Shown here: one piece after another, positions 17,572-22,177 of the stretch
How positions within the stretch are numbered: the stretch's first letter is position 1
Layout of the letters: each line of letters begins with the position of its first letter
Source of the DNA: Halobaculum marinum
Lineage (GTDB): Archaea > Halobacteriota > Halobacteria > Halobacteriales > Haloferacaceae
Length of the DNA: 64,000 bases
Assembly: GCF_029338555.1 (NCBI RefSeq)
Contig: NZ_CP119990.1
Span: 62,001 to 126,000 of the forward strand
Direction: 5' to 3'
Position numbers and translations under genes: made by a program
The notes under the pieces: generated by a model
The model's input: only the letters and a program-made list of their open reading frames with translations
Told to the model about the DNA's origin: nothing
The model's database searches: none

Positions 17572-18288
17572 TCAGTCGTCGGCCGGCGTCAGCAGATGCG
17601 AGCGCCGTTCGACTTCGTTGCTCGCCACTGCTCCGATCGCGTCGGCGTTCACGAACAACAGCCCGGCGATGCCGACACGCATGAGCAGATCGATGTAGAG
17701 GTTCACGGAGGTGTTGACGAACTCGCCGAGTACGCCGAATAGGGCACAGACTGCGTACACGATCAGCATCGCCATGAGGAACAACACGAGGTTCCGGCAC
17801 TTCCAGTGGAGCAGTCGTCGGTCGGCGGCCATCGATTCGGCGGCGCGCCAGATGGGGCGCACGAACAGTGCGGCGACGACGAACCAACCGACGATCACCA
17901 CCGCTGCAGCAGCGAGTGCCCCCGTCTCTCCGACGTAGCCGGCGTACGGGAGTTCGAACGCGACTCGTTGGATCGTCACGATGATCGCGGCGGCACCGAT
18001 CAGTCGGACGGATGCGCCCGCCAACGCGGCGGTGATCGCGTACACCCCAGCGTACGCGATCACGTCGTCGACGAGGTTCGGGAGGTCGAGCGTCCCGCCG
18101 GCGAACTCCACGGTGACGCCCAGCCCCATCAGCACGTACGCGACCGTCGACACGCCGATGATCGCCGTGGCAGCGCCGCCGATTCGGCGTGCCGGCCCCT
18201 CGAGCGAGCGGAGGCGGACGAGCAGCACCGCGAACACCGCTGCGTACGCAAGCGCCGCACCGAAGTACATCGTCGAGTCGGCGATCAT
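17572..18288 (-). CDS. Sensory-rhodopsin-like protein lacking the retinal lysine
   Basis: A 238-residue seven-helix protein, the same size as sensory rhodopsin II. It aligns along its length with SRII as I recall it: [10 protein letters not shown] in helix B, PNLVDD in helix C and KCRNLVLFL in helix F, with helix G reading [13 protein letters not shown]. Asp200 and Asp74 fall at the SRII counterion positions (D201, D75). The Schiff-base Lys205 is Arg204. Arg72 is Asn71, and the pocket residues Trp76, Trp171, Tyr174 and Trp178 are Asp75, Met172, Leu175 and Ala179. The only lysine (Lys163) is at a membrane edge, so retinal binding is unlikely. Tyr198, equivalent to the transducer-contacting Tyr199, is kept. 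Its ATGA start overlaps the transducer stop by 4 nt. Confidence 0.85.
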
Positions 18289-19889
18289 CGTGCCCCTCCA
18301 TCGGTCGCGACGGCACCTGCCTCACCGGGTGCGGTCGCGGCTCCGGTTGGCCCTGTAGCACGCGTCTCGAAGCTCTCGAGTTCCTCCTGCAGTTCCGCGG
18401 TCGCGTCCGTCAGCTGTTCCATCCGCGACTGCATCTCGCTGAGTGTCTCGGCGTTGGTCTCGGCGTCCTCGGCGACAGCGAGGCCACGTTCGGCGACGGA
18501 CCGAGCGCGTCCGGCCACCGAGTCGATGGTCGCGGTCACCTCCTCGGTCGTCGCCGCGGTGTCGTCCGTCGCCCTCGCGATCTCGGTGACGGAGTCGTCG
18601 ACCTTCGCGGCGATCGCGTCGAGGTCGACGAACGTCTCGCCGCTGGCTTTCGCGGTCTCGATCCCGTCTCGAAGACGTTCGCGTGCCGTCTCCAGTTCCG
18701 CAGTCACGTCGTCGACGTCGGCTTGCGTCTGCGACACCGCCGTCGTGATCGCTTCGGACTGTGACCGTGTCTCTTCGGCCAACGTCTTGACCTCGTTGGC
18801 GACGACGGCGAACCCGTCACCGTCCGCCCCCGACCGGGCGGCTTCGATGTTCGCGTTCAACGCAAGCATGTTGGTCTGCTCGGCGATCTCGTCGATGAGT
18901 TCGGTCGACTCACCGACCTCGCTCATCCGTTCGTTCAACGACCCGACGACGGCCGAGAGCTCGTCGAATGCGGATTCCAACTCGATCATCTCGTCGATGG
19001 TGTCGGTGGCCTGCTGGCTCCCCGACTCACTCAACGACGCCGCCTCGGCGCTTTGCCCGGCGACGGACTCCGCCGTCGCGGCGATCTCTTCGACGGCGGC
19101 CGACAGGTCGGCGGCTTCCGCGCTGGCCGACTCAAGTTCGTCAGCCTGTTCAAGGATCTCTTCGGCGTACTCCCGGAGGTCGTCGGCGAACTCGTACTGC
19201 GTCGACTCGACGGCAGTTGCGTCCTCGTGGAGCGACTCGCCGACGGTGTCGACCTCGGCGGCGAACTGTCGGATCCCACGAATCGTCTCCGAGAGCTCGA
19301 CCGTCATCTCGGTGTAGGCGGTACCGATCGCGTCCATCGCCTCGATGTCCGTCTGCGTCGGCACGTCTGCGACGAACACGCCGTCGGAGACGTCGTCCAT
19401 CGCGTCTGCGAACGTCGCGGCGTGGTCGAGCAGTTCCTCGTTCAACCGCTCGGACTCCTCGCGGGCGTTGACGGCTCGAGCTTCCGCAGCCTCCGACTCC
19501 TCGAAGGCGTCCCGCAGCGAAATCCGCATCTCTTCGAACGCGTCGGCCAGTTCACCGAACTCGTCGTTCCGCTGTGACGACACGTCGACGTGTTCGTACT
19601 CACCGCGACCGATCGCCGACGCGGCGGCGATCAATCGACGGAGTTCGACGCCGACGTTGCCGCCGATGACGATACCGACGACGCCGATGTTGAGCGTCAT
19701 GACGAGTAGCGTACCGACGAGCGCTCCCAGGCCGTTCGATCCCGTCGTCGTCACGTACACGGCGAATGTCGCGCCGAATCCCAACGTCACGACGACTGCA
19801 CCCACCAGCGCGACCGCGATTCGCCGTGTGTACTTCCTTGTAACTCGTTGAAAAGGTCTCATTTGCTTCGACCGGGATGACCCCACCAT
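18285..19889 (-). CDS. Htr-type methyl-accepting transducer
   Basis: A 534-residue transducer with two membrane helices ([20 protein letters not shown], about 24-46, and [20 protein letters not shown], about 54-78) and only a tiny extracellular loop. A HAMP domain (about 80-130), a long coiled coil and the MCP signalling tip ([18 protein letters not shown], about 337-354) follow. Length and layout match HtrII. Asn67 in [12 protein letters not shown] sits where HtrII Asn74 contacts the receptor. With so small an outer loop it cannot bind ligand alone and should rely on the membrane partner encoded next. It would signal to CheA/CheW. Met10 (19862) is an alternative start that suits a leaderless message. 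Confidence 0.9.
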
Positions 19890-21615: not shown

Positions 21616-21629
21616 GCCTTGCGGTTTTT
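21616..21629 (+). terminator. T-rich terminator-like tract
   Basis: GCGGTTTTTT (21617-21626) follows the small membrane ORF and fits an archaeal U-tract terminator for the plus-strand transcript, at the 3' end of the convergent integrase. Confidence 0.4.
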
Positions 21630-22177
21630 TACCACAACTCCTCAGCCTCAGCGTCCAACTGCGTCCCCGCGTACTGTAGGTAGTCGTTCGCGCTCGAGAG
21701 GTCCGCGTGACCCATCGTCTGCCGGATGTACTGCGGCGTCGCCCCTCGAGCCGCGATCAACGTCCCGTAGGTGTGCCGCAGGACGTGCGGCGAGATCTTC
21801 TTGCGGATTTCCGTCGACGCCGCGACGCCCTTTACCCGATTCGTCACCGTCTGCCGCGTCGCCCCGTACTCGGCGTGGTACCCGAAGTAGTCGCGGAGTC
21901 GCCGAAGCGTCCCCGGCTGCTTGATCGGGATGCTCCGCGCCGCGTGGTCGGTCTTCGGCGACCAGTCGCCCTCGCGGGCGGGCACGCGGAGCCGTTCGTT
22001 CTGCCAGTCGACCCAGTCGTCGGTCATGTGCGCCAGCTCGTCGGCGCGCATCCCGGTGTGGGCAAGCGTGTAGATCGTCACCTGATGGGTGAGGTCGCGC
22101 TCGTCGGCGGCCTCGAGCAGGTCGGCCAGTTCGTCTTCCCTGAGGGGTTCGCGTTTCCACTCCATCTGTGTCTGCAA
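21629..22177 (-). CDS. Tyrosine recombinase, catalytic domain only
   Basis: A 182-residue integrase with the full catalytic set: Arg44 (HTGMRADELAH), Lys75 (SPKTDHAARSIPIK), His131 and Arg134 (SPHVLRHTYGTL), His157 (TMGHADL) and the nucleophile Tyr166 (SANDYLQYAG). The usual N-terminal core-binding domain is missing, so it may be a short recombinase, a truncated integrase or a single-domain relative. Met5 is an alternative start. A 12-bp inverted repeat lies 56 nt upstream. It suggests that the surrounding DNA is or was an integrated element. Confidence 0.85.
   Translation of the reverse strand: MQTQMEWKREPLREDELADLLEAADERDLTHQVTIYTLAHTGMRADELAHMTDDWVDWQNERLRVPAREGDWSPKTDHAARSIPIKQPGTLRRLRDYFGYHAEYGATRQTVTNRVKGVAASTEIRKKISPHVLRHTYGTLIAARGATPQYIRQTMGHADLSSANDYLQYAGTQLDAEAEELW

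Follow-up and report, generated by a model that had tools for sequence, protein, structure and literature searches.

A pair of overlapping genes in a 64,000-nucleotide stretch of Halobaculum marinum DNA (the window) raises the question of whether a relative of sensory rhodopsin II (SRII) that has no lysine for retinal could still serve as the receptor of a chemotaxis transducer. The transducer gene (18285-19889; all window coordinates given here are on the minus strand) encodes 534 amino acids, and the gene that follows it (17572-18288) encodes a 238-amino-acid protein that has the seven-helix fold of opsins but lacks the retinal lysine. A sequence-only reading of the window had placed both frames correctly and noted their 4-nt overlap, which is an ATGA start/stop overlap at 18285-18288; both frames are intact, and the same or a similar overlap is common to most relatives of the pair. 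The genes lie on a secondary replicon of 250,847 bp.

The relation of the 238-amino-acid protein to SRII needed proof, because neither Pfam and NCBIfam scans nor single-sequence phmmer and PDB searches gave a useful match. Against Bac_rhodopsin (PF01036), the protein stays below the gathering cut-off and gives no hit up to E 10. A profile built from seven relatives matches N. pharaonis SRII (NpSRII) over residues 1-239 at E 6.6e-18, well above other rhodopsins, which bears out the end-to-end alignment of the sequence-only reading. The AlphaFold2 model of the protein (mean pLDDT 90) contains seven transmembrane helices, and a Foldseek search with it ranks SRII/HtrII structures at the top with TM scores of 0.80-0.83. 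The similarity is greater than expected by chance, given the E-value of the group-A profile for NpSRII and the occurrence of homologs in 11 of 60 related genomes, at identities down to 25%. The protein thus has a seven-helix rhodopsin fold nearest to that of SRII, a kinship visible only via profiles and structure.

The window pair shares with N. pharaonis SRII/HtrII the fold, the gene pairing, the Tyr199-Asn74 contact, and the RNL motif of helix F. The protein differs from its SRII counterpart, to which it is ~22% identical, in having no Schiff-base lysine, no retinal pocket, and no Arg72. The lysine expected of an SRII photoreceptor at position 205 is replaced by Arg204 (codon 17677-17679), and the alignments with NpSRII reproduce the other substitutions read at first sight, namely R72 to N71, W76 to D75, W171 to Met, Y174 to Leu, and W178 to Ala. 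A one-base sequencing error at the lysine was considered as a cause of Arg204 and rejected, because the codon CGT is at least two base changes away from either lysine codon; moreover, 58 of 60 relatives carry Arg.

These features identify the window protein as a member of group A of the opsin-related proteins (ORPs), a family known since 2016 (Becker et al., PMC4915679). Group A was described there by the change of Lys to Arg, by W76D, Y174L, and W178A, and by the retained Tyr199, and 15 of its 16 members adjoined an MCP transducer (PMC4915679). The window protein has Arg204, W76D, Y174L, W178A, Tyr198 in the place of Tyr199, and an adjacent HAMP/MCP transducer. In our tree, it falls inside the ORP-A clade (support 100/100), which includes the Halorubrum distributum locus (L031). 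Its sister is group B, which lacks the lysine as well, and ORP A and B together stand apart from all canonical rhodopsins (100/99). Within group A, the window protein belongs to a separate subclade, at 53-58% identity, whose other members come from Halobium salinum, Halobaculum saliterrae, and a further Halobaculum-type genome. In the window protein, aspartate is retained at both 75 and 76, and the position of Asp189 in most members is occupied by Gly. The window gene therefore adds a member to a group already described and does not found a new family. Likewise, the earlier proposal of a rhodopsin-like receptor without retinal was right, but not new, because Becker et al. had published the family, the residue losses, and the same hypothesis of a retinal-less receptor-transducer complex (PMC4915679). 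In the open literature that was searched, no follow-up experiments on haloarchaeal ORPs after 2016 were found.

By our count, a group-A gene is present in 53 of the 391 genomes examined from the class. The named relatives belong to Halobaculum, Halobium, Haloarcula, Halosimplex, Halomicrobium, Halobacterium, Halorussus, Halovenus, Natrialba, Natrarchaeobius, and Halorubrum; the clade is old and spread over at least 11 genera, and the distribution of homologs within the host's genus is patchy. About 2 kb from the window pair on the secondary replicon, an open frame at 21629-22177 on the minus strand resembles, when read by eye, the C-terminal part of a tyrosine recombinase, which could bear on this patchiness.

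The loss of retinal binding could be judged from 60 distinct group-A proteins, compared here in SRII numbering. None has Lys at position 205, where 58 carry Arg and two Ser; W76, Y174, and W178 are gone in nearly all of them. The pocket losses bear on the idea that the receptor is still light-sensing through non-covalently bound retinal, a carotenoid, or another pigment. In favour of this idea, the host genome encodes Brp/Blh as well as two canonical rhodopsins that carry the lysine. Against it, a pocket stripped of its aromatics is shared by almost the whole group, and the Halorubrum distributum group-A ORP formed no retinal pigment, with no peak at 480-580 nm in the presence of retinal (PMC4915679); such a result has been shown for that protein and the Natrialba magadii ORP only (PMC4915679). 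In addition, G009, a genome of the same genus, and G025 have an ORP-A gene with neither a PF01036 rhodopsin nor Brp/Blh. Light sensing via another chromophore is thus improbable.

The output side of the complex is retained. The transducer consists of two transmembrane helices joined by a very short extracellular loop, a HAMP domain (Pfam E 1.5e-8), and an MCP signalling domain (MCPsignal, 1.9e-33). A PDB search with the membrane portion gives NpHtrII at E 2.1e-12, so that the protein has the make-up of an HtrII-type transducer. Its Asn67 (codon 19689-19691) aligns with HtrII Asn74, as had been claimed, and among the 52 alignable group-A partner transducers this position is Asn in 43 and His in nine. 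The equality in length with HtrII that had also been remarked on looks coincidental, because the frames of sister transducers vary from ~520 to 815 amino acids. On the receptor, the tyrosine that contacts the transducer is conserved as Tyr198 (SRII Tyr199; codon 17695-17697), which agrees with the earlier assignment, and this residue is invariant in all 60 proteins. An MCP gene lies directly before the ORP-A gene in 57 of 59 testable cases. The host genome contains CheW and archaellin genes, and a taxis output is therefore possible.

Two other residues are invariant in 60 of 60 proteins, Tyr80 (window Tyr79, Thr80 in SRII; codon 18052-18054) and Lys162 (window Lys163, Arg162 in SRII; codon 17800-17802). 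The latter is indeed the only lysine of the window protein, as the sequence-only reading stated, but its invariance at the cytoplasmic end of helix F shows that it is not the idle edge residue it was taken for. Similarly, the claim that the counterion aspartates are kept is true of the window protein (D75 to D74, D201 to D200), but not of the family, in which Asp201 is kept in 36 of 60 proteins and position 75 is often Thr, Ser, or Asn. The steadier acid is a newly acquired one at position 76, found in 50 of 60.

The dN/dS values (NG86) of group-A pairs are 0.18-0.66, compared with 0.08-0.38 for canonical sensory pairs, and most group-A pairs fall within the canonical range; the values of the window's own pairs are rough, being near dS saturation under strong GC3 bias. 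The estimates indicate purifying selection on group-A ORPs. Decay of a sensory rhodopsin toward a pseudogene, for which one could cite the patchy occurrence within the genus and one frame-broken copy, is hardly credible under such selection, given also an old clade of at least 11 genera, a replacement of lysine that is not random (Arg in 58 of 60), and the invariance of Tyr80, Lys162, and Tyr199. The broken copy (L167, G177:C1:2928700-2932400) is a frame-shifted, split gene and the only clearly broken one among the 53 genomes. The two Ser205 proteins (L042 and L166) are group-A-like, carry Gln at 76, and still follow an MCP gene.

Collectively, homology, the loss of the lysine and the pocket, the kept transducer contacts, the conserved gene pair, and purifying selection are all evident at the level of sequence. 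We consider it very probable on these grounds that the window protein is a retinal-free receptor homologous to SRII and that it forms a complex in the membrane with the Htr-type transducer of the preceding gene. The earlier idea that the complex is maintained while chromophore binding is gone has gained support from the homologs, which combine the Arg and the lost aromatics next to MCP genes across genomes with no Lys205 among the 60, from the comparison of dN/dS with canonical sensory rhodopsins, and from the two genomes without a canonical rhodopsin or Brp/Blh. ORP protein went undetected in native cells in the study of Becker et al. (PMC4915679).

Within the receptor, group-A conservation peaks in the half of helix F (0.82) and of helix G (0.73) that faces the cytoplasm, compared with 0.50-0.55 in most extracellular halves; in SRII-like proteins, it is higher in helix C and in the outer, extracellular half of F. 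Conservation in group A has thus shifted to the cytoplasmic, output half, away from the old retinal pocket. Since F and G are the transducer-contacting helices in SRII and the input half of the ORP is divergent, this pattern would also suit an ORP acting merely as a scaffold or assembly partner of a transducer that itself senses, for example, membrane state via its transmembrane helices or HAMP domain. The scaffold role is unlikely, since the transducer is nearly devoid of an extracellular domain and a scaffold would have no need of a buried charge pattern and an invariant Tyr80 in the receptor core.

The buried charges could be informative about how a retinal-free receptor would be switched. 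In the dark state of SRII, the protonated Schiff base on helix G forms a salt bridge with Asp75 on helix C, and breaking this bridge signals to the transducer; light shifts the Schiff-base proton to Asp75, and the Tyr199-Asn74 contact relays the motion (PMC3274258, PMC5292967). What is new in the present analysis is that, across the aligned ORPs, an acid at 75 or 76 goes with Arg205. In the window protein, the proposed acid partners of Arg204 are Asp74 and Asp75 (SRII Asp75 and Trp76; codons 18064-18069). The pattern was first seen in 31 proteins and then checked on 29 more, in which the acid is present in 27 of 28 Arg proteins and absent in one Ser protein. Over all group-A proteins, 57 of the 58 with Arg205 have the acid, the single exception being L159 with N75/N76; both Ser205 proteins lack an acid at either position.

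Group B resembles the window protein in the absence of the lysine, in the retained Tyr199, and in the location of many of its genes next to transducers, but differs in keeping Arg72 and Tyr51 and in having Tyr at 76. It was described with leucine or another hydrophobic residue at 205 (PMC4915679), and its Leu, Val, and Phe proteins have Gly75; all 33 group-B proteins with Leu, Val, Phe, or Thr205 are without the acid. One subclade has Arg instead, with Asp or Glu75 in 12 of 12 (L011, L170, L176, L178, L185, L186, L191, L195, L196, L197, L202, and L209). Four group-B proteins have His205, two with the acid and two without. In both groups, every ORP with Leu, Val, Phe, Ser, or Thr at 205 is without an acid at 75 or 76. 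The covariation statistics are weak, because only about four changes of charge occur on a tree from which these columns were left out, and the three pairs of an independent-pairs test (p 0.25-0.5) cannot reach significance.

The presence of the acid with Arg205 and its absence with aliphatic residues, Phe, Ser, and Thr suggest that, in Arg-type ORPs, an encoded pair of Arg205 and Asp/Glu75/76 replaced the Schiff base-counterion bridge and became a non-light receptor switch, and that lineages without the cation lost the acid too. We put this forward tentatively, as possible rather than probable. Counting against it is the loss in group A of Arg72 and often of Asp201, residues of the SRII signalling network. 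In group A, the buried cation would be encoded as Arg205, with its carboxylate at 75 or 76 and the invariant Tyr80 filling space. A non-light stimulus, such as a ligand, a proton, an ion, or a membrane change, would perturb the Arg-carboxylate pair; this would displace helices F and G and, through the Tyr199-Asn74 contact, rotate TM2 of the transducer and alter CheA activity. Because the extracellular, input half has diverged, members of group A may sense different things. The family could thus combine a conserved output with a diversified non-light input acting on the encoded pair.

The Arg-acid pattern points to specific residues for mutation, and the two genomes without a known retinal-making gene would be clean hosts for tests of ORP function. 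ORPs are a numerous class of type 1 opsins, making up nearly 30% of those of haloarchaea (PMC4915679), and appear to need no light for signalling. Were their stimulus identified, microbial rhodopsins could be regarded as a general receptor family, by analogy with GPCRs (Becker et al., PMC4915679).

The host genome also carries, outside the window, a bacteriorhodopsin-like gene (L095, G000:C1:224373-225032), ~1.2 kb from brp, whose product has lost both the lysine (K to T) and the counterion (D to G) and has kept the tryptophans of the retinal pocket and the Arg72 equivalent. It is placed on a long branch next to the ordinary bacteriorhodopsins of Halobaculum and represents, besides the window ORP, an independent second case of a lysine-less rhodopsin in this genome.
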